Below, piece after piece: positions 711 to 63,545 of a DNA stretch of 64,000 nucleotides. The notes below the pieces were generated by a model. It did no database searches. It was not told the DNA's origin and was given only the letters and a program-made list of their open reading frames with translations. A program made the position numbers and the translations under genes. The stretch is from Atriophallophorus winterbourni (taxonomy: Eukaryota > Platyhelminthes > Trematoda > Plagiorchiida > Microphallidae), in assembly GCA_013407085.1 (NCBI GenBank), contig JACCGJ010008551.1, forward strand, positions 1 to 64,000. Reading direction: 5' to 3'. How positions within the stretch are numbered: the first letter of the stretch is position 1; each line of letters opens with the position of its first letter.

Positions 711-756
711 CACACACCACAACCGGCTTCGTGCTGTTTGTACTCTGCCAGTTGGG
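711..756 (-). ncRNA. Decayed hammerhead-type repeat (family B)
   Basis: On the minus strand the order is a CTGATGA-like block with substitutions, a GTAC-AAACA-GCAC helix II, a GAA block and CCGGT. It aligns with the intact family B core at 57142-57171. The first core block is mutated, so activity is not expected. Confidence 0.4.
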
Positions 757-1107
757 ATAGAACTATCAGGATACGCATGCCGTGAAAATGCGGAGGAGTG
801 GTAAACAACAATAGAGGAAAATATTCGTATAGATGATGTTTAAATTGTGTTCACTGAGTGTGCGTATTTGGCGTTGGACGATGGTAAAGAAGTTTTGCTT
901 GTAAGACAACACAGGAAGTTCAACTAACATTTAAATAAGTATCCGGCAACGATGCATGGTGGTCAAACACTTGAATAGGCGATCATTCCGGGTTAAGTAG
1001 TGAAAAGTTCATCAATAACAGGATTGTGTTGTTGTTCACATTGACACTTAAATGCGGGTTTCTGGATGTTAGTCCTATTTGGGTGAAGCTTACAAAAGAT
1101 AAAGGTA
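757..1107. other. No recognised feature
   Basis: Apart from the flank of the family B repeat (a GCATGC-containing segment up to about 830), nothing recognisable is seen. Confidence 0.3.
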
Positions 1108-5175: not shown

Positions 5176-5640
5176 TGGATGTGAGCAACAGAATACATGT
5201 TCGTCTTTACCGAAAATCTTCACTTGCATGCAGTTGCATCACACACACCCCACGACCGGTTTTGTGGTGTCTACACTCACCAGGTAGGAACGGTAGGATC
5301 AGTATTCGCATGCGCTTTAAACAGTGGAAGAATGGTAAACAAGTTGCGCGTGTAAGCCACTATTGGATAAGGTTGGCATGACCAACTTGTTCAATCACAT
5401 GTGCCGACGCACATGTAGAAAGGTTAAACCCATGGACATGTAATATAAATCCGTATTTGCATGCATTTTCATCAAACACCGCACGACCGGTTTTGTGCTG
5501 TTTGCCCTCCCCAGGCAGTAACAGTACAATCAGGACTAGCATGCGTTGAAACAGTAGAAAACGGTAAAAAAGTTTAGCTTGGAAGCCACTGTTAGGAGAA
5601 GTTGGCAAGACAAACTTGTTTAATACTTGCATTAAGAAAG
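5176..5640 (-). repeat. Tandem pair of hammerhead-type repeats (family B)
   Basis: Two similar units lie head to tail, with equivalent points at 5251 and 5482 (period about 231 bp). Each has, on the plus strand, GCATGC, a CACAC run, CACGACCGGTTTTGTG and a CAGG end. On the minus strand this is a hammerhead layout with the self-complementary ACCGGU of helix III. Both units have lost core bases (CTGGTGA and CTGGGGA in place of CTGATGA, AAAAC in place of GAAAC), so they are relics. Confidence 0.6.
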
Positions 5641-8600: not shown

Positions 8601-11600
8601 GGTCATCCAAAAGAAGAACGCATTAAACCTGTTTAATAGTAACTTTAAAACAAAAACTTATTCACTCAAGATTAACTGAACCCAATCTTATTGACTCTAC
8701 GTGAAGACGGCAAACAGCTAGAAATCGATGATGGTGGAGTGTAAGTGCAAAGGATGATAGAAATCCAAAATAATAGTAAAAGTTGCACTTTTGCTTATAC
8801 AACACATTTGAGTCAACTGACATGTGCCGCATTTATCCGCATTTAATCAATGCGAATGTGTTAGTTGAGATAAGTGATGTTAGTCTTGCCTACATGGCTT
8901 GACACTACATGACGGTTTTTCTCTGTTGAGTAGATTATGCGGTGGTTTGAGTACTACTCAAACATGTCCAATGCTCTGTATATCACCTTTGTTCTAAGGA
9001 GGCATCAACGTTAGAAACGAAACCTTGTATAAACGATTTCCTTAAAATTTAGTTTAATAAGGGTTTATTGTCGGTGTTTTCATTAAACCCATGTGAAAAA
9101 CTACACTTCAGTGCAAAAGTTTTAGGATATGAATAAAAGAATAGATTGGCTTCTTGCAGGAAAATCTGCATCAAAACGGGGTCAATGCGTTATGAAAATC
9201 GAATAAAAATTACGCAAGAGCTAAATTCTGATTGCGGATAAAGTTTCGACTGAAGATTTTGAAAAAAAAACAAGAAAGGTCAGATGAAGTTAGAACTTGA
9301 TTTGATAACCTATGCTGTTTGTTGGATGGGAAATAGCAGTAATTATGTAGCGCCTGTCATTATAATCTCCTTCGAAATAACAATCGAAAGCTATATTGTA
9401 CAGTGGGATAAATTCATGAATGCAAAATAAACCGACAGACAGGTTAATCCCAGTCAAATACGACTTTAAGATAACCCGAATGAATGACTGATTTATGGAT
9501 TAAAATATATTTCAAATAATATTGCTATTGCTATTAAAAATGTGCAACGCATAAATAAAGACAGCACTAATGGCTGACCAAATCACAATAGACTATCACC
9601 ATATGATAGTGAATCATTGTTTTCAATATCAACACCCACGATGCGATATGATTTCAAAAGATTGTGAAATGCATTCGCTAAATACTTAGATTTAATTGGA
9701 ACGTGAACCGTGCGCGAGCAAGGGTGTTTGTGTTTTTCATTGCCCAAATGTGTACAAAACAATTGTTCAATTAGATCAATGTGCGGACGTAGAAAGAAAT
9801 TAAGCAGCGTGTACAACGAGAAAACATTTATTTTGTTAACGAATTGAAACATGGCATGTGTAAACACCACGTCGGATTAGGCAGCGGTTTTGTAGAATGA
9901 TGAGGGTGAAAGTTGATGTATCCTTGAACAAGAGCTTACACAATAATGGGTTTGTTGCAGAAATATAAGGACGGTTTAAAGGCGATTTTAATGAGCGGTA
10001 TACATTAGCACTGCTCCGATATATATCGCTGCGTCAGCACCTTGTACGATACACATAACATCAGAGATAAGGCCAGATCCTGACCGTCAACCCGTCAGCA
10101 TTGCGTTGCATGTGATCAAAATTCATTCTAATAGATTGTGTAATTTTCTTGTTTTCAGATTATGGGGGTTGTGTGATAATTATGCGCAAACGGTTTGTCA
10201 CGGAAGCCTCGATATTAGATATTGCAATGTTCGCTCTCAGAAGCTCATGCTTGCCGAATGGATGAAACTGATTATATTGTACATCAAGAGGTTATCCGAG
10301 TGTGTTTAAATTTATTTTCAAATGATATATATATATATGTGTGTAAAGGCCTACAAATACATTCCGACTACCATTCAGCCAGTGCTACATAGCTCAAGAA
10401 ACTTTTCTACACTTAGTGTACGAGTAGAGCGCGAAAATTTTCATAGATTTTCAAAATTGAGCCTTCTATTATTAACTATTAAAATGTCAACATTATTTCC
10501 CTTTCGATTTCAAAATCCATGAGCAACATATAACTTTCAATGTGGGCACCTTTGCACATAGAACAAAAATAAGAGCAACACTTTTTTTCAAAATCCTGTA
10601 ATGTCTCTGAGAATATAAATTGTTACACAGCTACGCTATCGATCACACCCTTACGACGGACCGGATGTTTGATTAACCAGACAACTGACACTGATAAGGT
10701 TGTTGCGACATCCTCTGGTGTAAGGTAAACAAGATTTTACTACGAATCGCGTTTCGATACATGCTAGAGACCACCATCTTGAATTCCCACAAATCGCGTC
10801 TCTCTCTCACACACACAAACGGAGATTGGGTCCATGTTCTGCTCGAAACGTTAGCCGAGGGTTCCCTGAATATTGTCCGTCACGTACGTGTCAATCACGA
10901 TAAACATGTGTATATAAATTTTGGCAGGTCAGATGGTTATTTCCGTGTGACACACGAACCTCATAATGTAATATTCAATTCGTGTAATCACTTCAATTTA
11001 GAGAAATAAAGGGTTTCATTCCAAATTTCTTACTTCAAAATTGCTTGAGTTGAGGCATCTACCAATGTGCTCAATGAGGCTCATAGAACGCATCAATATT
11101 TTGCCACCACTCCAGAGTTCAAATTATTTCTAATCGAAATTCGAAAAGACTTCCTACACTTCATCACGGGTGTGTGTGATGACATGGAAGCGGCTTCCAA
11201 GATTAATGGTTAAAAAAGCGAACAATTTACAACAACCACATGATTACGGTATGAATGAAAATGTGAAAAATAATAGTATGGCTCATGAATGACGTTCGTA
11301 TGCATATATAAGTCCTAGTTCACTTTTAATATCGTCTTACAAGGAAAGTCCCCCACATGTTCAGGTAAGGACATCCAGGAAAATATAGCACGCGCGACAT
11401 CAAACGCCACCGGCAATCAATACGTTCAATCGGGATGCAGAGCGATAGGGTACGTTCGCTTGTGACACATTTTCATCACACTCTTAAAGCAAGTGGCTTA
11501 GTGGGTGACCTTAAGTCGACACGTTTTTTTCAGAAAATAATAATATTGTGACGTATCCTTCTTTATGTAAAGTCACATAGACCCAGACGTCGCAATTTTT

Positions 11601-13002: not shown

Positions 13003-13269
13003 AATCTTGTTGTCTCTTTTTTAAATGATATTCACACGGTATATTGTTAAGTATGATTGTATTAAATAAATTCTTTTTTATAAGATCATATTTCTTATGT
13101 AGATCACATACTAAAGCGGCACCCAAAAGCCTATGCATTTCGATTAATCAGACAATAGGCATTGCGATGAAAATGATAATCCACGAATCGAGTGTAATTT
13201 CAGTTTGACTTTTGAATGTTACGTTCACGTAAATTTAATTCGGTAGAATAATAAAACGCTAAAGTAAAG
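13003..13269. other. 3' flank of Merlin pseudogene
   Basis: AT-rich, with AATAAA-like runs near 13061-13066. A terminal inverted repeat of the transposon could lie here but was not found. Confidence 0.3.
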
Positions 13270-13420
13270 TGTTGCTCACATCCCCCGCAATTACACACCA
13301 CTACAGGTTTCTGGCTGTTTGCCGTCATCAGGTGGAAACAGTGGATAAGTGGTAAACAAAGTTATACTTGAATGCCACTGTTACATAGGGTTCGTACAAT
13401 AAAACGCTAACTTTATAGGC
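13270..13420 (-). repeat. Hammerhead-type repeat (family B), better preserved copy
   Basis: At 13298-13335 the minus strand reads helix I CCAC, core CTGATGA, a GGC-AAACA-GCC helix II, GAAAC and GTA, then GTGG closing helix I. The core blocks are intact. Helix III is reduced to about two pairs, and the first position of helix II is mismatched. The flank shares the CACTTGAATGCCACTG-type segment also seen near 5350 and 42000. Confidence 0.6.
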
Positions 13421-30880: not shown

Positions 30881-31084
30881 AATAAAGTAAATGCTAGAGT
30901 TCTGTTTTTTTAAATACACAACTCTTCTTTAGCTGAACTCTCACAATACTGTTGAATAGAAATTTCTTTTCATTTTTCCAGCCTCATTCCTAACGAATGG
31001 CTTCCTAAATACAATTTGCATATTCACTTGGCTTCGCGAACGTCGAGGATATCCAACGCAAAATATGAAAAAACGTTTTGGCAG

Positions 31085-31165
31085 TGGTGGTTGCTTCTCT
31101 GCAGCTTTCCAGCTAAAGAAATTCTAGACGCTCGATTGGCCATTTAGCCTTTTTCTGTCCCGTGC
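31085..31165 (-). repeat. Dispersed repeat C, inverted copy
   Basis: The reverse complement gives CCAATCGAGCGTCTAGAATT and GAAAGCTGCAGAGAAGC, matching 26445-26530 and 59470-59560. Confidence 0.65.
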
Positions 31166-31199
31166 AACTGAACTGAAATGAAATGAAACCCTTTTAAAT

Positions 31200-39117: not shown

Positions 39118-42100
39118 CTGAGGTGCCCGGCACAAGAACGGACATAATATGATCAGTGAATTGATCGGTAAAACTTGGAACAAGGATAGATAATAAACAA
39201 GGTTGTGTGTTTGACGATACTGTTACGTAAGATTGGAAACCCAATTCACAAGAAGTGCAAACAGCAAATTCAAGAAAAACGGTAAAATGTTGGCCGTTAA
39301 CCAGCCAAATTTTCTCACTCTCCATGACACCCAACAACTTAACTAAAAGATGGAAGAAAGCGTGAGGAAATATCTTAGGGTTCAGAATCGCTGTGACAAA
39401 TGCGTTCCCTTTGAAATTCGCATTTTATGCCAGCCCGAGTCATATTCCTTGAAGGAATTGAAAAACGGTAATAAAACAATGCAAAGAAATTTGAGTGCAA
39501 TCGGTTAGAGCCGGTTTCGCGTAATGTTTCACTTTTGACACAAGCTTCGTCAGACCATCGGTGATAGTCAGGACAGGGAACATGATTAAGTAGTAGTCAC
39601 CCCCACCACCACTGATTTGATCTTACCTTACCGTGTTCACTTGTATTAGATTGATATGAATACACACTAGTAGGAAAGTCGACCAAACATATTCCAATCG
39701 ATTGGTAATAAAGCAAGTTGGCATTATAGTTTGCATGGATGTGCGATGGTGTAGTGCTTCTATCATGCGTCGGTAACACCGTAACAAATTGCTTTGCCAC
39801 TGGTATTGAGCTGCATGATGACACACGCTGGACTCCCAATCCCATTTCTTAAATCTACCCTGACTTGTGTGACATGTCAGCCCAAGTGCAGAGAATAACT
39901 GTGCGGTAATTTGTTTGGCTTCAGGCTTGTGATATGACACATACCAACAATCTTCACTTGGCAAACAACATTAGACTTTAAAGCCGCTGTTGAAACGGGT
40001 TCGTATAAAGAACCAGCGCGAAAGACGCTTACAATATACATTGTCGTGTTCACACGAGAAGCGTGCATTAACTCGAAACATATTGATTAATTGTTCAACG
40101 TTTAGGCTGAAGAAGACGAAATTCGCTTACCAAGGAAAACTCCCGCATATATTCCGATCCGAATGCGACGGAGAGCTTCAACAATGCCAGCTGGACAGGA
40201 ATCTTTGCATCCATGGATGATTCCGCAGCCAAATCGTAGTACCGTTTGGCCAGATGAATGTCCTGTGTGAAACAACAAAATGGGTCAATCGGTGTTGTGA
40301 CGATAATCACATTGTTCAACCTTCCGATGGATGCGGTATGTAGGTATTGAAACGACGCCGAAACACCAGCATCATCGACAGGTTCCTAATCGCAAGTCGA
40401 TTTGGGGCTGTCATTGATTCTTGCTTTCAGTGATATGACTCAAAATCGTGTTCAGTGGTGGCCTTGTTGTGCGTATACTCTTGGAGTGTTTGATTAATCT
40501 TGTATGCTGTCAAGTATGATTGGTGAGGATGGCTTGTTATGATTCCAAAGGTTGTCATATCCGGGGGTGGCAGTGGGGATAAGCTCCGCTGTTTATAAAA
40601 TGCCCCCATATGGCGCGCGTCTCAAATACCCTCCGACAACCAAGTATAGCTTCTGGCCTGCACGAGTGCACGGATGTGCAATTACGCACGGATGTGCAAT
40701 CCTGCAGTACTTCTGTGCTGTGTGGCTAACACCGTGCTAAATTGATTGGCCGCCGGTAGTGAGCTGCATGCGAATACACGCTGGAGTCTCACTACCATTT
40801 CTATTTCTTTTGTCATATCTGTCTAGGCCTGGGCAACCTGACAGTATCTCAGCCCACGTGCAGTTTCTGACTGTACGGCACTTTGCCTGGATCAGGCTTG
40901 TGCTTTAATACATACAAGTGCTAAATTGTTGTTAAAAGTCCTAAAATGAGGGGAAACGGTGGACGAAAAATCTATTGACCTGTGGAAGATAGCACAGGCA
41001 TACCTTATTCGCAGAGCCTAGCAGAAGCTGGGAGAAACGATCGGGTGGCCCGTCCATGACGTGGCGCGTTGGGACGAAGAAACTCAACGTAGCGCTAGGC
41101 TCAGTTGGGCGTATTCGTTTGCCTGGGTGGGGTCCAAAAGACCCACCTAATAGCTAGCTGGAAACCTTACGAGATATGGCTTCGAACTGAAGTCAGTGGC
41201 GGCAGTGTATTTTATTATGTGTGTCATAATTTTTTATCTGGTATTATTTTATATAAAAACACAAAAAACAAAAAATCGCATGCAGTGAAACTACAAAAAC
41301 AAGCTGTAATTTGCGCATTTATTTTCGCATATTCCGCTTGCCTGCTGTCCCTTCTTCACGCGCTTGCTTATCTGCTTTTCCTGCTTCATACTGCTTGGCA
41401 CTTTGTCTGGCTCCAGACTTGTGCTTCATGATGATGATGATGAGGTGCCTACACCTCGAATCAAACATGCATTCAAGCAAGTGTTGTGAACAAGTAGAAC
41501 GACATCCGCATGACACCTTCCTTGTGGCTTTCACTATCACGCATCATAACAAGCTTCCCTCGTCACTACGCTTGACAACATACAAGGTTAAGTTAACACT
41601 CCAACTTTCGAATTCTGACTTTGTCTTCTTCTACAATCGCGAAGTTTGTGTGCGTTGTTTCGTGAGGGGGAATTGTGATTAACGGATCCTACAACATTTT
41701 AGCGCATTCTACATTGTTGGACTTAATTGGATCTTTCGTTGGACTATTGGTCTTTTAGTAAGTTCATTCCATTTTTGTTGTATTTTATGTAGTGCAAACT
41801 TTTTTGGTTCACTACAAAAATCTGACAATCTGTCGAAAAAACGAACATGATTCTATAGGCATCGTGATGACTACATCCCCCAAAGCTATACTCCATAACC
41901 GGTATCTGGGCGCTTGCCCGTATCAGATGGAGAGCGAGTAAGATTAGGTTCAGCGAGCCTTGACATAATAGAAAAGTAAGAAAGAATGTTACACTTGAAA
42001 GCCACTGTTGAATAGGGTTCGTACAACGAGCCACAACGTTCGAATACACGTTTAAAATGAACGTATTCTATAGGCTTCAACTTATAAGACAAGGAACGAC

Positions 42101-56600: not shown

Positions 56601-59363
56601 CCAGGAATCTTCATTCAAGCCGACTCATCCTCCAGGAGATATATGTATGTATGAAAGAACAAGCCTGATCCAGGCAAAGTGCCGCACAGTCATAGACTGC
56701 ACATGGGCTAAGATACTGTCAGGTTGCCCAGGCCTAGCCAGATATGAGAAAGAAAAAACAGGAAATGGTAATGAGACTCCAGCGTCTTTCAGCATGCAGC
56801 ACACTACCTCTGGCCAATCAATTTAGCACGGTGTTCGCTGCACAGCACAAAGTATTGCACGATTGCACATCCGTGCAACATTGCACATCCGAGATAGTCG
56901 CACACAAGACAAGACAGTCAGAGACTGCACGTGGGCTGAGATGTGCAGTCTACGATTGTAGGGCACTTTATCTCGCGAGACTTGTGGTTTCATAAGTAAA
57001 AATATATACATCATCTAAACAAGGAGCGCTTGTATGCCACTGTTGGATAAGGCTGGTACGACCAACCTGTTCGAAGCATGTGTCCAAACACATTCCTCCA
57101 CTGTTTCAAGCGCATGCGGATCCTGATCTTACTGTCTCTAACTGATGAGTGCAAACAGCACGAAACCGGTCGTGGGGTGTGTGACGGAAAAGCATGCAAA
57201 TGAATATAAATCATGTATTAAAAGTATTTAAGCACGCAATGTTAAAAAAGCTTTAGGTTCGTATATGCCGAGCTTCAAAAAATTCAGGTCAGTCGCTTAT
57301 TACACTTGAAGATGGCAATGTTTAAACGTTGAGGGAGTAATAAAACGATGGAAAAAGACCAGCAGTAGGCCATTTTGCGTACCCGCCCCAACGTAAGCAG
57401 CAAGTAAGGCGATTTACGGGGGGCGACGGCTGATGCACAATGAACTTATATTTAGCTGTCATTGTCAGGGTTGTATGTGGGCTGGGATACTGCCCAGCAA
57501 TAAACTATAATTCATTTATGTGAAAAGAATGAGAAAGCAGAACCTTACGCAGTTTCGTCCTCGGTCTGCGCTACGACCTTTCGCTAATCTGTCCCATTAT
57601 ACTGTGTTCGGTATAATGGAAAGTCAAAAACCCACTGTCATGATCTCAAGCTTAAAAACGTAAGACCATGCCACTGCGTTTTGGGCAGGCATCGAGTTTC
57701 AAACCTACGGAACGCGTTGCCGCATGAGGCATCTGCGAAGGATTCGGAGTCAGTTTGAGCAGCTTGTAGACAATGCATTGTCACCAATGTGCAATCAAGC
57801 AGAACTTTTGTGCTGTGGGGTTAAAACCATGCTAAACTGATTTGTCACCGGTAGTGAGCTGCATGCTAAAACACGCTGGAGTCTTACTGCTAATGTTATT
57901 TTCCTTTCCCATATCTGTCTTCGCTTGGGCAACCTGACAGTATCTTAGTCCACATGCAGTCTATGACTGTGCGGCACAGCCTGAATCAGACAAGTGTTTT
58001 CATACATACATTGTCAATCAACAAGATGGACCACAATGTACAAGATATCTTCTTAACCCTAGCTTGACCCTCACTCATCCAATCAAAACTGTAGAAAGGC
58101 TAATGAAATTATTACTACCAATACATGGCAAGTGTGCTTTTTTCTTTTAAATGTTGCTTACCCTTACGTTTCGGATTTATTGAAAAGTGGCACAGGTATG
58201 GTATGAAAGCGCAAGCCTGATCCAGGCAAAGTGACGCACAGTCAGAGACTACACCTGGGCGATATTATTGTCAGGTTTCCCAGACCTAGTGGCATAGGAC
58301 CGGTCGACAAAAGGGCAGTGGTGAGACAGCGCCATTGAAAGCAACAGCTGACAGTTCAAGGAATAAGAGGAAATTTGTAAAATATAATGCGTGGCCCACA
58401 TGTAAGACCAATCCTTCAGAAGGAACTGCAGTTGCGTACTCACTGCACGACAAGAGAGTGCAGTGAACTGAAACAGGTGCAGTGTTATGTAGCTTTGGTA
58501 ATGAAATAATTGAGGAAAGAGGAATATTGAGCAAAAGTGAGCTACTTCCCACTCAATCCTAGCTAAGTACGATTTGACAAGGCAATAATTGTCCAAGAAT
58601 AAATGGGATTTACTGCGAAGTTTTCAAGTCCACAACAACTGCCAGAGTCAAACGCCTTATGTAGCCGCAGGAAAGCAAATGTTGGAGTATAAAAACCAAA
58701 TTCACTGAATTCACATAGAAATTCTACCTTCGGAATGTTTACTCAGAAACAATTGTGGTTATTGAGACGGAAGATACGTTGAGGCATACACTTGACATCT
58801 ACATACTGCAATTTCGTATCATATGGTATGAAAGCACAAGCCTGATCCAGGCAAAGTGCCGCACGGTCAGAGACTGCACATTGGCGATATTATGTATGTA
58901 TGCATGAAATCACAAGTCTGATCCAGGCAAAGTGCCGCACAGTAAGCGACTGCACATGGGCTAAGATACTGTCAGGTTGCCCAGGCCTAGACAGATATGT
59001 GGAGGGATATAGAACAAGAATTGGTAGCGAATTCAATTTGAAAACATGGTTGGACATTTGGGATTTAGATGATAGTCAGAATCATTGGAAACACTAAAAA
59101 TTTGTGATGGAAATAGATAAATCATGGCTTTTACTAAATATGCACAGTTATACTGAATCGATAAGCTTGAAATTTAAAGAGTATAGATGTCAAAATTGTG
59201 TGGTTTTTAGCTGGAAAACGCTTCCATCGATTTAAACTGCATACAAAATACGAAACACACCTTTCGCGGTAATACTTTTCTCATCTTGAGTGAGAACGTT
59301 CGCAACGAAGAGAAAAAGAATAATACAAGCGAGTATCCGACAGATAGGGGCGATAAGCGACAT
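38995..59363 (-). CDS. SEL1L: SEL1L/HRD3 orthologue (11 exons, complete gene)
   Basis: Adaptor of the HRD1 ubiquitin ligase complex in the ER membrane. In other animals it receives misfolded lumenal proteins and stabilises HRD1 for ER-associated degradation. The exons join with GT-AG sites in consistent phases to about 697 residues: signal peptide (1-26), acidic Ser/Glu linker (27-80), Sel1 repeats in groups from about 85 to 650, and a hydrophobic end (662-693). Landmarks nearly identical to vertebrate SEL1L are [59 protein letters not shown] and DIHLAKRYYDLAAE. The vertebrate fibronectin type II module is not seen, consistent with a product shorter than the roughly 790 residues of human SEL1L. 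Nine middle exons are secure, the first is probable and the last is tentative. Introns hold nested mobile elements. Confidence 0.92.
39118..39724. other. Putative SEL1L intron 10, distal part
   Basis: No protein frame recognised. At 39507-39555 (minus) CTGACGA and GCGAAACCGG resemble hammerhead core blocks but lack a sound helix II. Confidence 0.3.
39725..39950 (+). repeat. SINE-A copy, degenerate
   Basis: GTAACACCGTAACAAATTG, GAGCTGCATG, CCCAAGTGCAG and GGCTTCAGGCTTGTG keep the family order with many changes. Confidence 0.65.
40131..40262 (-). CDS. SEL1L: SEL1L exon 10
   Basis: 132 bp, phase 0 at both ends; acceptor TTTCACACAG, donor GTAAGC. It encodes residues 614-657: DIHLAKRYYDLAAESSMDAK, then PVQLALLKL and YMREF. 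This is the last Sel1 unit, next to the membrane anchor. It is the closest match to vertebrate SEL1L in the window (DIHLAKRFYDMAAE there). Confidence 0.95.
40263..40417. other. SEL1L intron 9, proximal part
   Basis: Intron sequence without recognised repeat; the intron runs to 42163. Confidence 0.5.
40418..40546 (+). mobile_element. LINE beta-2, 3' coding/UTR fragment
   Basis: GATATGACTCAAAATCGTGT, GGAGTGTTTGATTAATCTTG and TGGCTTGTTATGAT match 13535-13640. Orientation is opposite to the host gene. Confidence 0.65.
40547..40663 (+). mobile_element. LINE-beta 5' UTR fragment
   Basis: TTCCAAAGGTTGTCATATCC followed by GGGGGTGGCAGTGGGGATAA and TTATAAAATG is the same segment as 56112-56235. It begins at the same base in both places, so it probably marks the true 5' end of an RTE-like element. 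Confidence 0.6.
40664..40920 (+). repeat. SINE-A copy, full length
   Basis: The complete family order is present: CGGATGTGCAAT head, GCTAACACCGTGCTAAATTG, GGAGTCTCACTACCAT, TAGGCCTGGGCAACCTGACA, hairpin GCCTG-GAT-CAGGC, CTTGTG and an ATACATAC tail. A good reference copy. Confidence 0.9.
41020..41165 (+). mobile_element. RTE-like LINE, C-terminal coding scrap
   Basis: GGGTGGGGTCCAAAAGACCC matches the WGPKD codons of the beta ORF at 55850. Flanking codons are diverged. Confidence 0.45.
41214..41448 (+). repeat. SINE-B copy
   Basis: Starts TGTGTGTCATAATTTTTTAT, then GCATGCAGTGAAACTACAAA, AACAAGCTG and TGCTTGGCACTTTG. The hairpin GTCTG-GCTC-CAGAC, CTTGTG and an (ATG)n tail follow. The same element, inverted, is at 50478-50732. 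Confidence 0.85.
41449..41690 (-). mobile_element. LINE beta-2, 3' end
   Basis: The plus strand shows GTGCCTACACCTCGAAT, ATGCATTCAAGCAAGTGTTG and CATACAAGGTTAAGTTAACA, the reverse complement of 13550-13720. It lies in SEL1L intron 9 in the host orientation. Confidence 0.7.
41985..42090. repeat. Flank of family B hammerhead repeat
   Basis: ACACTTGAAAGCCACTGTTG with AGGGTTCGTACAACGAGCCA is the segment that also sits beside the 13.3 kb and 5.0 kb family B units. The ribozyme core itself is not present here. Confidence 0.45.
42164..42336 (-). CDS. SEL1L: SEL1L exon 9
   Basis: 173 bp; acceptor CACTCGATAG, donor GTAAGT. Residues 556-613: SRVKLGDCYYYGSGTERDF, AVQHYRLAQELGHNSQAMFN and [13 protein letters not shown]. 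Two Sel1 units with the usual A/G/Y spacing. The first two bases complete a glycine codon with exon 8. Confidence 0.96.
42710..43035 (-). mobile_element. LINE-alpha 3' coding fragment
   Basis: The plus strand at 42840-42980 follows the reverse complement of 50990-51120 (codons around SWEELALDRS). Strongly diverged. Lies in SEL1L intron 8. Confidence 0.5.
43036..43771. other. SEL1L intron 8, middle part
   Basis: No gene or clear repeat; an 88-codon minus frame at 43447-43713 is unrecognised. Confidence 0.35.
43772..43866 (-). repeat. SINE-A copy, short form
   Basis: A GGTATGGTATGAAAGCACAA tail and hairpin half, then TGGGCGACATTAGTGTCAGG and a sudden end. The same short form, with GGGCGATATTA in place of GGGCTAAGATA, recurs at 58193-58292 and 58826-58892. 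Confidence 0.8.
43868..44065 (-). mobile_element. LINE-alpha 3' coding fragment
   Basis: The reverse complement codes for NPTSWEELAFDRSIW, matching DPASWEELALDRSLW of the 51 kb copy. It directly adjoins the short SINE-A. Confidence 0.65.
44250..44324 (-). CDS. SEL1L: SEL1L exon 8
   Basis: 75 bp; acceptor CTGATTCCAG, donor GTTCGT. Residues 531-556: KITAVPREEFASRAFVQW then QRSAAQG. It equals the vertebrate segment ending LLHWNRAASQG. Both borders split a glycine codon after its first base. Confidence 0.93.
44568..45010 (-). mobile_element. LINE beta-2, 3' end with (ATG)n tail
   Basis: The minus strand runs from an LPAGGPSDQ coding remnant (about 44985) through GAGGTGTAGACACCTC to CTCTCC and an (ATG)n run at 44586-44568. 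It shows the natural 3' terminus of the family. Host orientation, SEL1L intron 7. Confidence 0.7.
45011..45572. other. SEL1L intron 7, middle part
   Basis: No recognised feature. Confidence 0.35.
45573..45755 (-). repeat. SINE-A copy
   Basis: A GTATGGTATGAAAGCACAAG tail side, CAGTCAGAGACTGTCAGGTT (internal deletion of the CACGTGGGCTAAGATA part) and CAATCAATTTAGCACGGTG. Confidence 0.85.
45893..46150 (-). repeat. SINE-A copy, full length
   Basis: All blocks from ATGTATGAAAGCACTAGCCT through CAATCAATTTAGCACGGCGT to TTGCACATCCGTGCATATAC. Confidence 0.88.
46256..46421 (-). CDS. SEL1L: SEL1L exon 7
   Basis: 166 bp; acceptor TCCCTTCAG, donor GTGGGT. Residues 476-531: [36 protein letters not shown] and AYMLEE. 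LFKNV.ERGRW and AQSN.A are signature strings of SEL1L. It ends one base into a glycine codon. Confidence 0.97.
46503..46651 (-). CDS. SEL1L: SEL1L exon 6
   Basis: 149 bp; acceptor TTTTCGCAG, donor GTTTGT. Residues 426-475: NYGMKVNYKLALKFLELASN, QGNTMALFYLGEMHATGSG and VLRSCFTAAE. Sel1 units matching vertebrate HASGTGVMRSCHTAVE. Introns on both sides are tiny (78 and 81 bp). Confidence 0.97.
46730..46961 (-). CDS. SEL1L: SEL1L exon 5
   Basis: 232 bp; acceptor TTTCTACAG, donor GTAAGT. Residues 349-426: ALHYLNESTQQENPIGQTAL, ALVYLHGKAGI, SIAVDLLVKAADAGWVDAQL and TLGRIFLG. Two full Sel1 units. Ends one base into a glycine codon. Confidence 0.96.
46962..47689. other. SEL1L intron 4, proximal part
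   Basis: No recognised gene or repeat. Confidence 0.4.
47690..47812 (-). repeat. SINE-A copy, partial
   Basis: Tail GGTACGGTATGAAAGTACAA through GTCAGGTTGCCCAGGCCTAG and ATATGAGGG; the head half is absent. Confidence 0.85.
48165..48615 (-). mobile_element. LINE beta-2, 3' coding end plus UTR
   Basis: The minus strand codes for AARLPGWCPRDQISQWLVTL (about 48600-48540), stops, then carries the common UTR (GAGGTGTAGGCACCTC at about 48320). Host orientation. It ends about 95 bp from exon 4. Confidence 0.75.
48709..49149 (-). CDS. SEL1L: SEL1L exon 4
   Basis: 441 bp, phase 0 at both ends; acceptor ATCCTTCAG, donor GTAAGT. Residues 202-348: [75 protein letters not shown] and MASEAGSALAKAFLGE. 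A Gly/Ser-rich insert (GDGSGSADSSTGG) sits before the YYQF repeat. Corresponds to the vertebrate [20 protein letters not shown] block. Confidence 0.97.
50148..50322 (+). repeat. SINE-A copy nested in LINE-alpha
   Basis: GTGAGCTGCATGCTGAAACA, TTAGGCCTGGGCAACC and a damaged hairpin (CCTCGTCAGGCTTGTTC). It replaces LINE codons normally read as RAAVILSRLNS at 24240. Confidence 0.8.
50478..50732 (-). repeat. SINE-B copy with 13-bp target-site duplication
   Basis: Flanked by ACGGAAGCTGAAT at 50465-50477 and 50733-50745. The duplicated bases are LINE-alpha coding sequence, so the SINE landed in the LINE. Minus-strand 5' start AGTATGTGTCATAATTTT, 3' hairpin GTCTG-GCTC-CAGAC, and a CATCAT-type tail next to the first duplicate. 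Confidence 0.92.
51418..51694 (-). CDS. SEL1L: SEL1L exon 3
   Basis: 277 bp; acceptor CTTGGTTTTAG, donor GTAAGT. Residues 109-201: AFQFLHEAAKRGHLKAREW, GNPRGQFGLGLMYSSGLWVN, HALVYYTFSALGGDELASMA and L. A second AG ten bases downstream would break phase with exon 2, so the first AG is preferred. First Sel1 group of the protein. Confidence 0.95.
51735..51920 (+). repeat. SINE-B copy, 5'-truncated
   Basis: ATCGCATGCAGCTAAATTAC, ACAAGCTGCTTC, TTGCTTGGCACTTTGTCTGG, GTCTTATGCTTC and (ATG)n. In SEL1L intron 2. Confidence 0.8.
52085..52440 (-). mobile_element. LINE beta-2, 3' end
   Basis: GAGGTGCTTACACCTCGAA, CATGCATTCAATTAAGTTTC and CATACAAGGTTAAGCAAGCA (plus strand) match the reverse complement of 13550-13720. 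Host orientation, SEL1L intron 2. Confidence 0.7.
52490..52740 (+). repeat. SINE-A copy, near full length
   Basis: GCGGCTAACACCGTGCTAAA head, TAGGCCTGGGCAACCTGACA, hairpin GCCTG-GAG-CAGGC, CTTGTG and a (CATA)n tail 52719-52737. Confidence 0.9.
52846..53068 (-). CDS. SEL1L: SEL1L exon 2
   Basis: 223 bp; acceptor CACAACACAG, donor GTAAAT. Residues 35-109: an acidic, Ser/Pro-rich linker (PTEENSPQSP, ETDSSPIEDDSTSTVAAEQE) followed by PIAQRLYDAGMQILNDSDS, the L-Y-x-x-G helix that opens the SEL1L repeat region. Begins two bases into a codon completed by exon 1. Confidence 0.93.
53069..53639. other. SEL1L intron 1, proximal part
   Basis: AT-rich, no recognised repeat. Intron 1 extends to 59260 and holds the next mobile elements. 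Confidence 0.4.
53640..53860 (-). repeat. SINE-A copy
   Basis: An ATGTATGTATGGATGAAATC tail side, CACAAGCCTGATCCAGGAAA, GTCAGGTTGCCCAGGCCTAG and a diverged head. Confidence 0.85.
53980..54020 (-). repeat. SINE-A 3' fragment
   Basis: CACAAGCCTGATCCAGGCAA only. It abuts the 5' border of LINE-beta. Confidence 0.7.
54036..56098 (+). mobile_element. LINE-beta (RTE-like), truncated and internally deleted
   Basis: Starts at the end of the endonuclease (TQIDHIAISYRWRSSVQDCR, SSDHALVCANL). The linker codes for MFQLIRSTGPRMPSVSELI. RT entry RRRKAPGLDELPAELFVEG and IPSAWGPSAIVPVFKKGS (to about 55000) is followed at once by SPFLFNFAIDDVMQ (55015), so a block of RT motifs is deleted. The catalytic DYADDIAS (55121-55132) is intact. 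The C-terminal frame 55174-55962 is open: YGLHFSPSKCKVFLHDW, FTYLGSCITTGGDIEAEI, AVLLYGCETWTLR and ARLSW..., ending RLPGWGPKDREDMWLITLSV. A short 3' UTR ends in a hairpin and (TAA)n at 56080-56093. In SEL1L intron 1, opposite strand. Confidence 0.9.
55174..55962 (+). pseudogene. LINE-beta ORF, C-terminal 262 codons
   Basis: Longest undamaged piece of the beta ORF. It covers the region after the RT active site: the thumb-like YLGS segment, the YGCETW motif, the QLRWLGHVLRMDERRLPRLA block and the tail ending VPVYQ. It has no stop over 262 codons, which suggests the copy is not very old despite its deletion. Confidence 0.85.
56113..56639 (+). mobile_element. LINE-beta 5' UTR of a second copy
   Basis: Begins TTCCAAAGGTTGTCATAGCC then GGGGGTGGCAGCGGGGATAA, the same start as 40547. 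About 525 bp, GC-rich, no long frame; cut by a SINE-A at 56640. A 13-base SINE-A scrap (CAGTCAGAGACTG) lies between it and the 3' end of the preceding copy. Confidence 0.6.
56640..56890 (-). repeat. SINE-A copy, full length
   Basis: An ATGTATGTATGAAAGAACAA tail side, all middle blocks, CAATCAATTTAGCACGGTG and TTGCACGATTGCACATCCG. Confidence 0.9.
56895..56998. repeat. Inverted SINE-A scraps
   Basis: CAGTCAGAGACTGCACGTGG (minus-type) is followed by a plus-type end GGGCACTTTATC...GACTTGTG. Two short pieces in opposite orientation. Confidence 0.5.
57011..57230 (+). repeat. Family B hammerhead repeat unit
   Basis: Single unit with the flank GTATGCCACTGTTGGATAAG, CGCATGCGGATCCTGATC, the ribozyme core and AGCATGCAAATG. 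The order is the reverse complement of the 5.2-5.5 kb units. Confidence 0.75.
57136..57178 (+). ncRNA. Hammerhead ribozyme motif, family B, intact core
   Basis: Core CTGATGA (57142-57148), helix II GTGC-AAACA-GCAC (57149-57161), GAAAC (57162-57166) and the self-complementary ACCGGU of helix III, with the expected cleavage after GUC at 57171. Helix I pairs only partly (about five pairs with wobbles and one mismatch next to the core). All invariant core bases are present. Located in SEL1L intron 1 on the strand opposite to the gene. Confidence 0.8.
57231..57769. other. SEL1L intron 1, no recognised feature
   Basis: A segment similar to the middle of SINE-A is hinted at near 57470-57500 (GGGCTGGGATACTG) but not enough to call. 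Confidence 0.3.
57770..58012 (+). repeat. SINE-A copy, near full length
   Basis: ACCGGTAGTGAGCTGCATGC, GGGCAACCTGACAGTATCTT, a partly lost hairpin and a CATACATACA tail. Confidence 0.85.
58193..58292 (-). repeat. SINE-A copy, short form
   Basis: GGTATGGTATGAAAGCGCAA, CACAGTCAGAGACTACACCT, GGGCGATATTATTGTCAGG. Same short subfamily as 43772-43866. Confidence 0.82.
58293..58825. other. SEL1L intron 1, no recognised feature
   Basis: A 115-codon minus frame (58249-58596) overlaps the SINE end and has no domain. Confidence 0.3.
58826..58892 (-). repeat. SINE-A short form, cut by a second SINE-A
   Basis: ATATGGTATGAAAGCACAAG to CACATTGGCGATATTA, then broken by the tail of the next copy. Confidence 0.85.
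58893..59012 (-). repeat. SINE-A copy adjoining the previous one
   Basis: TGTATGTATGCATGAAATCA, CAAGTCTGATCCAGGCAAAG, GTCAGGTTGCCCAGGCCTAG, ending near ATATGTGGAGGG. Confidence 0.85.
59261..59363 (-). CDS. SEL1L: SEL1L exon 1: start codon and signal peptide
   Basis: 103 bp; ATG at 59363-59361, donor GTGTGT after 59261. Residues 1-34: MSLIAPICRILACIILFLFV, then ANVLTQDEKSITAK. A short positive n-region, a 12-14 residue hydrophobic core and a likely cleavage around ANVLT give a secretory signal. It ends one base into a codon, as exon 2 requires (joined codon GAT). No other start exon in phase was noticed upstream of exon 2. Confidence 0.82.
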
Positions 59364-59469
59364 GCCCAATCTAATTATTTATATTTCGCGGGCTAACTTA
59401 CGCACACGCTTCCAAGGTCTTCAGCTCAGTTCAGCATCAGTTATAGTAGTTCAGTTCAGTTTCGCACAG
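59364..59469 (-). promoter_or_regulatory. Immediate upstream region of SEL1L
   Basis: About 100 bp between the start codon and repeat C. It contains several CAGTTCAG-type repeats on the plus strand at 59425-59460. No TATA box or other defined element could be assigned. Promoter role inferred from position only. Confidence 0.3.
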
Positions 59470-59560
59470 GACAGTAACTGGCTAACCAACCAATCAAGCG
59501 TCTGAAATTTCTTCATGTAGAAAGCTGCAGAGAAACACCCACCACTTTATAATTCTTGGC
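59470..59560 (+). repeat. Dispersed repeat C
   Basis: CCAATCAAGCGTCTGAAATT, AGAAAGCTGCAGAGAAAC and CCCACCACTTTA match the 26.4 and 31.1 kb copies. Confidence 0.6.
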
Positions 59561-59656
59561 GCCAAGTTTAAATTTTGTTTCGACGTGGACAAATTTTTGT
59601 TTAAAGTCAGATTTTTATTAATAAGTAGTATATGACGTTCGAAAAGCAGGACAGAA

Positions 59657-59699
59657 GCACACGACCGGTTTCGCGGTTATTGCCGCTCATCAGGTGTGC
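59657..59699 (-). ncRNA. Hammerhead ribozyme, type I, all helices intact
   Basis: Read 5' to 3' on the minus strand: helix I GCACAC, core CTGATGA, helix II GCGG with loop CAATAA and CCGC, then GAAAC, then helix III formed by the self-complementary ACCGGU. Cleavage is expected after GUC, and GUGUGC closes helix I with six perfect pairs. Every invariant hammerhead nucleotide is present. The two- to three-pair helix III without a loop suggests action as a dimer or in tandem transcripts, as known for short type I hammerheads. Confidence 0.93.
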
Positions 59700-59814
59700 G
59701 TATCCGTGACCTTTTTGACTTTGTGCTAAACCCATTTATTTGCGATTTCGAGGATAAATCCTCATTTGCAAATTGAAATTTAGCGTAATCTAAGTCCCAA
59801 AATGCAGCGAGCAA

Positions 59815-59857
59815 GCACACGTAAAGGTTTCGCGGTTATTGCCGCTTATCAGGTGTG
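59815..59857 (-). ncRNA. Second hammerhead unit, decayed
   Basis: Helix I (GCACAC with GTGTGC) and helix II (GCGG-CAATAA-CCGC) are preserved. The core reads CTGATAA and helix III is broken (ACC opposite UUU, cleavage triplet lost). Not expected to cleave. Confidence 0.8.
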
Positions 59858-60078
59858 CGTATCCGTGACCTGACATTCGAACGCCGTTCTGACTTTGTGC
59901 TAAACCCATTTATTCGCGATTTCGAGGATAAATCCTCATTTGCAAATTGAAATTTATCTTTTGATATGGGGACTAATCTAAGTCCCACAGTTGGTGCAAA
60001 CGTAGCACCGATAACTGTTTGGAATATTTTTGCAACATTCCAATAACAGCAAGATGTTAGTTTTTGTTTAAAGTCAGA

Positions 60079-61299: not shown

Positions 61300-63545
61300 C
61301 TTATGTTCTAAACATTCGCTTGTAATATTAGAAATATATAGATTGAACTTCTTCGCAGAGTTAACTACACTCACTACAAGATTTTTGGTGTTACGGAATC
61401 ATGGTTGTCTAATGATGACCACGTACCCGATGCAATAGCTGACAGGTTTAGCTCCGTAAGCAGCGACCGACCTCTTGGTAAGCTGGTAGGAGGTGCGCTG
61501 CTCCTTAGTGATCATGCGAGTCCTCTTTAAAAAACTATTTCTCGTACAACGACGAACGTGCAGACAGGATCTGCCTTGCTCGTGCAAAGGTGCACCCGTA
61601 TAGCGGTAAGTTGAGTTTACCGTAGTCTGAACACTAGTTCGGAGTAAGATGCTCTTCTGCAACTTAGGCTTTCGTCTCTTCTGGTCTTAGCACCGCGTAT
61701 TGTAATCCTTGGTGATTTTAATCACCTCGAAATAAACTGGAAGTACTAAACCTCGCATGCACAAGGGGAAGCGAACTACGTTTCAGACTGTATATACTCC
61801 CATGCACTACACAAACACTTAAACGAACCAACTAGACTGCGCGAGAGCCAGTTTCCATCGACTCCCGACCAAGTTATTTCAACTGCTAAAAGCGGTATAG
61901 AAAACATTTTTCTTTCAGCCACCACTGGGAAAGAGCGACCATGTAGTGTTAACCTACAAGTTACTCTTGTATTTTGGCACCTCCCACTTGAGGTATCTCA
62001 GAAAGAAAAGAAGAAAAAATCCGTTGACATCAGGATCGATTTTCTCTTATGTTAACCGTTCACAAAAAAGGTAAAAAGTGTGCATTCACTGAACGCCCAT
62101 CATGCAGCGAGTTTACATTCGAGGTACACAAAATATATTGGCCAACCTAGCATACAACAAGGCGGCAGGGACCGATAAAATCCATCAACGAATGATCAAA
62201 CTGCTAGGTCTTAGATTTGCTGCTCTGATCACAGAACATTTTAGAACATCCCTCAGACACAGGTCCCTTCCTTTGGGTGGGAGAACAGTTGTTGAAATGC
62301 TTATTTATAAAGAAGAAGCTTCTTAAGTGATCAAAAATTACCTGCCGTTTAGAATCACTAGTGTACTATGTAAGGTTATGGAAAGGTAATCCGCGACGAA
62401 ATTTGTGGATACTTAAGCAAACATTCTCTACTGAATACCGCACAACACGGATTTCTAAAAGGTAGGTCAAGTCTGACTACATTATTGTGCTTTCTAAACT
62501 AGGTCACTAAGAGGTTTATGATGGTATATTTGTAGAAGTCTTCTATCTTGAATTTAGGAAGGCCTTTCATTCAGTCAACCACATGCTCTCGCTTTCCGAG
62601 CTCTCAGTCATAGAAGTATCAGGAGTCCAACTGGGTGGATTCGCGCATTCCTCAGTGACCATTCAATAACCATCGAGGTAGATTATTTAAACTCCGCGTG
62701 TGCGCATATAACGATTGGGGTTCCACAGAGCCAAGCGTGTTGACCGTTCCTGTTCATCATCTTTATTGATCATTTAGCTAACCAACTGCGCTCACCCTCT
62801 TTTACGTTTGCTGACAACGTAAAACTTGTCTGTAGGTAGGATAACTCTGATCTGATAAATGACGTAGTGGCTATGACGAAATGGGCGGATAATCGGTACA
62901 TTCTACTTAACTTAAAGAAACGTCACTATCTCTCTACCCTGGCCGGCAACATTATAGTCTTTACGCCCTCAGCCCACATATATTTCCGTAGGGTGAAATC
63001 TACTAAGGACATAGGAATCATAGTCTACGAAAACTTCTATTTGAGCCGATCAATGTGTTGCTTCTGCTCGCATGGCCGGGAATGAACACTTCCGAATACG
63101 TTCAGCCCATACACTCAAAAAAGCTAAGATGAGGTTTACACTCTACATGGCAATAGTAAGGCCGCATATAGAATACGGTATTTTGTCTTATCAGAAAGAT
63201 ATAGTGCAACTAGAAAAAACACCGAAGCTGGCCACTCGCATGTCTAAGGGTTTAGCATACACGAACTATGATAAAGGTTTCGTAGCATTAGTTCTGCAAA
63301 GGAATAAGCTGCTTCTAATTCGATGATTTCTTCCGGTTCTCTCCTCTGGTTGGTACACGATGGCGCAGTCTCAAGCTAAGTAAACAGCATACAAGACTAG
63401 ATTCCGGATCGCACTTATTTGGCATTCGCTAAGCGAACGTTAAGAACTCACTGCACCGAAGAACTCGTCTCGACAGCTCCAGTAAATGCATTCAAACATG
63501 AACTGGACGAGAGTTTGCAGTTGATCTTTCCGGAGAATTAACGTT
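61300..63545 (+). mobile_element. LINE-delta, endonuclease to 3' end, decayed
   Basis: Endonuclease pieces GVTESWLSNDDHVPDAI (61390), VGGALLLSD and IVILGDFNHLEINW-type codons (61705) and LNEPTRLRES lead into RT: AYNKAAGTDKIHQRMIKLLG (62150), QHGFLKGRSSL (62450) and GVPQ-like codons at 62720. The catalytic motif is FADN (62807-62818). Then WADNRYILLNLKK, STLAGNIIVFTPSAH, AIVRPHIEYGILSYQKDIVQ (63150) and a final VNAFKHELDESLQLIFPEN stop near 63540. Many stops; inactive. Confidence 0.8.

Follow-up and report, generated by a model that had tools for sequence, protein, structure and literature searches.

A probable decayed retrozyme-like insertion with two tandem hammerhead ribozymes in the genome of the trematode Atriophallophorus winterbourni

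The window analysed here is the 64,000-nt stretch at positions 1 to 64,000 of contig JACCGJ010008551.1 of A. winterbourni. Near its end lies a 449-bp insert (59612..60060; 41% GC), bordered by two identical copies of an 18-bp direct repeat, TTTTTGTTTAAAGTCAGA, at 59594..59611 and 60061..60078. These copies represent a candidate target-site duplication, with A or T at 14 of the 18 positions. Read in the sense of the minus strand (60060 to 59612), the insert is made up of a 74-nt 5' leader (59987..60060), a hammerhead ribozyme (HHR) termed A2 (59799..59868), a 158-nt unit extending from the A2 cut position to that of a second hammerhead, A1 (unit at 59663..59820; A1 at 59640..59714), and a 51-nt tail 3' of the A1 cut site (59612..59662), with the terminal letters AATAAAAA. 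A sequence-only reading of this DNA had described two hammerheads at a spacing of 158, perfect 18-bp direct repeats and the lack of an ORF, all of which were recovered: the distance from cut to cut is 158 nt on the minus strand, the repeats are exact, and the five ORFs of 31-86 aa that overlap the region are not of note, the longest beginning outside the insert. The 'A-rich 3' end' of the same reading proved to be merely ...TTATTAATAAAAA.

The analysis covered the window together with a sample of the same assembly, consisting of 20 stretches of 10 kb (200 kb, or 190 kb effective, as stretch L014 contains only N). The 18-bp word had no further occurrence in the whole window or in the 200 kb. 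When 3000 random pairs of 80-bp stretches were drawn from the window at a like distance, a shared 18 bp was found in one pair, which was possibly this element itself; a chance origin of the direct repeat is thus unlikely at this length. A satellite was also rejected, as Tandem Repeats Finder gave no array at the locus, and the repeat does not extend into an ordinary satellite, an extension that the earlier reading had named as evidence against an insertion. On the left flank, a dispersed repeat (59448-59546) ends 47 bp short of the left 18-bp copy and therefore leaves the insert boundaries unaffected. It has four other matches (31083-31177, L011:2359-2451, L011:8353-8450 and L017:249-317), the first of those in L011 lying directly behind an array of hammerhead family C (see below). 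We take it to be an abundant neighbour, although one that deprives the outer left flank of uniqueness. The right flank had no other match in the window or the sampled loci.

The internal composition of the insert was less regular than two plain tandem units, as which the block had been described. The tandem hammerheads are present; however, with a threshold of E 1, the leader gave no match to the 158-nt unit, and the tail showed only a weak one, limited to its first 21 nt (71%, E 0.25). The two units themselves differ by indels of about 15 nt, with body repeats 174 apart and HHRs 159 apart. The insert is therefore not composed solely of copies of one circular unit, a composition that is an expectation from the circle model and not part of a stated definition. 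Since leader and tail are not matched by the unit, the RNA that was copied would have exceeded a 158-nt circle.

A1 matched the Rfam family RF02275 (HH9) with 44.0 bits (E 5.5e-8 in the 64-kb window) and has an intact core, whereas A2 matched it with 25.2 bits (E 0.063) and is decayed. HH9 is a hammerhead type of amniote introns. A default Rfam scan reported nothing for the locus, because both scores are below the gathering score of 52 of the family. A1 consists of stem I (GCACAC/GUGUGC), CUGAUGA, stem II (GCGG-CAAUAA-CCGC), GAAA and helix III, A(CCGG)U, which is a single closing pair with a palindromic CCGG tetraloop; cleavage would be expected after GUC. In A2, CUGAUGA is replaced by CUGAUAA (G8 to A) and GGUC by UUUAC, with loss of the cleavage triplet, in agreement with the earlier description of one intact and one decayed unit. 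The UUUA of A2 could also be the leftover of a longer helix III loop (compare 'uauuA' in HH9) rather than a sign of decay. In the window, a descriptor for type I HHRs that requires a perfect core and a loopless helix III was satisfied by A1 alone, and 20 first-order Markov resamplings contained no such site. In addition, a model, R1, built solely from five other HHR copies of the window (57136, 5289, 13337, 5520 and 8695), found A1 at E 3.6e-6; A2, at E 0.67, was not significant. A chance hammerhead at A1 was rejected on the HH9 score, the descriptor scan and this independent model. Among the viral contigs of IMG/VR, no exact match was found to a 27-base piece of A1.

In a Penelope element of Anolis, a G8C change abolished cleavage (PMC11167929). 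As A2 lacks both G8 and the cut site, neither site of a dimer formed in cis would be complete: judging from the sequence, this copy could cut once at most and would be unable to release its own 158-nt circle. Moreover, with helix III of A1 consisting of one pair and a palindromic CCGG loop, two HHRs would probably have to pair for cutting to be efficient.

Folding predictions gave a mixed picture. The minimum-energy fold predicted for A1 by itself, for the 158-nt circle and for an A1:A1 pair differed in each case from the catalytic fold; the sole pair that folded as a double hammerhead was that of the 57-kb ribozyme of family B. The predicted 158-nt circle was 65% paired, with a modest excess of stability (z -2.06; 5 of 200 shuffles were as stable). 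The leader and the next 24 nt (59963-60060) folded into back-to-back hairpins of -34.9 kcal/mol, versus -17.4 kcal/mol in shuffles (z -5.7; 0 of 200 as stable), for which no Rfam family was reported. For the whole insert, z was -5.76, and for its complement -4.35 (0 of 100 shuffles as stable in either case). As the complement is also stable, though less so, the stability of the insert is owed in part to inverted repeats that can fold on either strand. Across nine aligned HHR copies, in an alignment that had been fitted to the structure before pairs were counted, 83.5% of the cells were paired versus 72.6% in shuffles, and nine cells were double-changed versus 3.3 (0 of 500 shuffles as high for each). 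Structures slid along these copies reached a pairing of at most 56%. Overall, three of five measures of stem support exceeded the shuffles and the other two did not (29 and 198 of 500 shuffles as high).

Elsewhere in the window, R1 detected seven further HHR-like sites (E < 0.01), of which those at 716-757 (E 1.1e-5) and 41892-41932 (E 0.0088) were, like A1, independent of the building of the model. These copies, assigned to families B and C, represent a second, older HHR retroelement family, scattered over the two strands of the window. Family B comprises a tandem pair on the minus strand (5214..5624) with decayed HHRs at 5249-5289 and 5480-5520, a copy on the plus strand (57016..57207) with an HHR at 57136-57176, and the decayed HHR at 716..757 (minus strand). 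In the plus-strand copy, the 5' piece (57016-57093) is inverted, a pattern seen after twin priming or in Penelope copies. Family C includes a single unit on the minus strand (13263..13397; HHR at 13297-13337) and the decayed HHRs at 8695..8735 (plus strand; part of the model set) and 41892..41932 (minus strand). The single C unit is flanked by 13-bp direct repeats (13250-13262 and 13398-13410), at most 2 nt from the homology limits of the copy; among the candidate duplications of B and C, only this one was used, as it agrees with those limits. In random placements, shared words of at least 9 bp occurred in 29 of 150 and of 13 bp in 5 of 150; with a narrower geometry, 13 bp was reached in 18 of 3000. 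The B copies at 5.2, 57 and 0.7 kb shared no word of at least 8 bp in the flank stretches compared.

In the 200-kb sample, R1 with default filters gave 15 matches at E < 0.001, found in 7 of the 20 stretches, and 18 matches up to E 1. The family A insert, by comparison, had no match at 1e-4 in the sample (190 kb without L014) and no second copy in the window, so that the case for its mobility comes from one locus; families B and C thus appear to be commoner than family A in the same genome. Two C units lie 241 bp apart in L011, with 175 nt alike at 94%, and a second pair with the same spacing is present in L019 (97 nt at 86%). In these tandems (L011:1937-2352 and L019:9536-9873), the cut triplet was GUA in most of the copies displayed and the closing pair of stem II was a C-A mismatch.

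Family C also provided information on 3' ends. With the L011 unit as reference, 13 C copies were compared, and the ends of the local alignments were taken as copy ends, which decay may have shortened in some cases. Eight of the 13 copies stop between +40 and +47 nt past the cut, with 5' ends ranging from -36 to -375; such fixed 3' and ragged 5' ends are the expected product of reverse transcription from one start site. Two others (L011:2036 and L019:9550), each the leading member of a pair, continue into the next unit, one (L010:7638) extends to +91, and those at 8.7 and 42 kb are old copies that lose similarity at +6/+7 and are therefore uninformative on the 3' end. Agreement among copies, calculated without a reference, fell at the same place, from 0.77 to 0.48 in family C and from 0.93 to 0.62 and then 0.50 in family B (per ten columns). 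The C copies that exceed one unit in length are in keeping with a template that was circular or multimeric, and family C seems to behave like a retrozyme. The single family A copy has its 3' end at +51 past the cut, one observation that is consistent with a fixed start.

By analogy, the C pattern resembles the internal starts of reverse transcription of Penelope-like elements. For the element of Anolis, PMC11167929 places the cut at +26 and the start of reverse transcription at +111-118; an optional tail of 30-40 bp separates two such starts. By our subtraction of these positions, the start is 85-92 nt past the HHR cut. We put forward, tentatively and at somewhat less than even confidence, that a Penelope-type enzyme, working in trans, reverse transcribes HHR circles or multimers in this genome from a fixed internal position some 40-50 nt 3' of the cut. 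A fixed 3' end of animal retrozymes was not found in the literature covered, part of which was available as excerpts, and may be in print in work on the HHRs of Penelope-like elements.

The insert was compared with known systems. Animal non-LTR retrozymes are described as having type I HHRs, tandem repeats of 150-450 bp, low GC and duplications of over 4 bp, with 15 bp in Nematostella (PMC7229834, PMC4918200), and platyhelminths are named among their hosts (PMC7229834). The insert is similar to the metazoan non-LTR retrozymes of Cervera and de la Pena 2020 (PMC7229834) in its type I HHR, short tandem units, non-coding nature, low GC and duplication of well over 4 bp. Its 158-nt unit is just below the circles of about 170-400 nt given there, and it differs from these elements by a unique leader and tail and by the presence of only two units, one of them dead. 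An axolotl HHR family, described in the same paper as cutting better as a dimer, shares with A1 a one-pair helix III with a palindromic tetraloop (PMC7229834). HHRs also occur in a short non-autonomous retroelement in the SINE-like SM-alpha repeats of Schistosoma, and a possible target-site duplication has been reported for a Schistosoma W-element (PMC8490949, PMC4918200, PMC6155905). By description, the insert is set apart from SM-alpha by the lack of a tRNA part, its loopless helix III and its best Rfam match, HH9.

Based on these data, the locus probably, albeit with considerable reserve, represents the decayed copy of a small, non-autonomous retroelement of the non-LTR kind that carries tandem type I HHRs and for which a circular RNA is predicted. 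We describe it as retrozyme-like rather than as a full member because the leader and most of the tail are unmatched by the unit. The retrozyme reading first given to this DNA is thus supported in part: the type I HHRs, the 158-nt spacing, the lack of a notable ORF, the GC content and the 18-bp repeat agree with published animal retrozymes, but the leader and tail beyond the unit and the dead A2 do not fit a simple copy of a circle. In the proposed mechanism, the RNA of the element would be the minus strand, with a structured leader, A2, the 158-nt unit, A1 and the 51-nt tail. HHRs would cut the multimeric transcript, presumably with two of them pairing with each other for efficient cutting. 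As the related C family suggests, and in the manner of Penelope-like elements, reverse transcription would begin at a constant position some 40-50 nt 3' of the cut, and the enzymes of another retroelement would presumably carry out both the copying of the RNA and its insertion at an A/T-rich site. Insertion would leave the 18-bp target-site duplication, of which both copies and the boundaries are present at the locus.

The same features could also belong to a fragment of an autonomous Penelope-like element, that is, two pseudo-LTR copies with minimal HHRs and a 3' tail, without an ORF. A minimal helix III, tandem HHRs and an A/T-rich target are shared with these elements (PMC7761336, PMC11167929), which are also marked by a 3' end tens of nt downstream of the cut, as the single +51 end of the insert may indicate; the Anolis start site and optional tail point in the same direction, and the inverted 5' piece of the 57-kb B copy would be in keeping. 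However, no reverse transcriptase or GIY-YIG coding part was found attached to the insert HHRs. Six-frame searches of 52-64 kb, 1-15 kb and L019 yielded no GIY-YIG domain at E 0.01, and no reverse transcriptase joined to one between or near the HHRs; at 15-52 kb, the scan for reverse transcriptases and endonucleases covered seven ORFs. Six RVT_1 matches were obtained, three of them with an APE-type endonuclease beside (35.0/36.3 kb, 61.6/62.6 kb and L019) and three (28.4, 49.6 and 54.9 kb) with no endonuclease identified. Moreover, the unit has no ORF of note, family C is arranged in head-to-tail repeats of 241-nt units, and the loops of stems I and II of A1 (UAC and CAAUAA) fit HH9, whereas minimal Penelope HHRs are said to be without helix III or loop-loop contacts. 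We therefore consider a Penelope fragment unlikely. As GIY-YIG was not found and half of the RVT_1 matches adjoin an APE-type endonuclease, even a Penelope-type helper is one that we infer rather than observe.

If a LINE had copied the linear transcript of a SINE-like element, with the HHRs as passengers and no circle, this would account for a leader and tail unique to the insert, for the 3' end AATAAAAA and for an 18-bp duplication, the size of which is likened to that of LINE insertions in PMC4918200; LINE domains are also present in the window. This origin is nevertheless quite unlikely, given that C copies stop at a constant position, in sequence that has no poly(A) end, and that a strict search of the insert for Pol III boxes detected neither an A nor a B box. 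A tRNA-derived SINE in particular was rejected, since ARAGORN, in addition, found no tRNA in the window. A decaying hammerhead that was duplicated locally, its 18-bp repeat being owed to chance or a repair event, would agree with the single-copy state of family A in the window and the 200 kb, but this origin is very improbable, as 18 bp was reached in only one of the 3000 placements and copies of related HHRs lie scattered over both strands. Among other features of the sequence analysed, we observed a LINE on the plus strand (about 61600-62940) whose APE-type endonuclease and reverse transcriptase domains do not share a frame, a short dispersed repeat around CCTGATCCAGGCAAAGTGCC (1111, 2027, 58212, 58837 and 58918), and homologues of SEL1L and innexin, which indicate an animal host and probably an invertebrate one.

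The retrozyme-like element is of a known kind, animal retrozymes with large duplications, including those of platyhelminths, being already in print, and the locus itself, as a dead copy, adds little alone; the surrounding C family is more informative. For the return of animal retrozymes into the genome, a primed circular RNA should, according to PMC7229834, be recognised by the enzyme of a LINE or Penelope element. The proposed mechanism, if true, would account jointly for the tandem copies and for their fixed 3' and ragged 5' ends, and would connect animal retrozymes with their helper; the C family, with its fixed 3' ends near the ribozyme, offers a concrete and testable start site.
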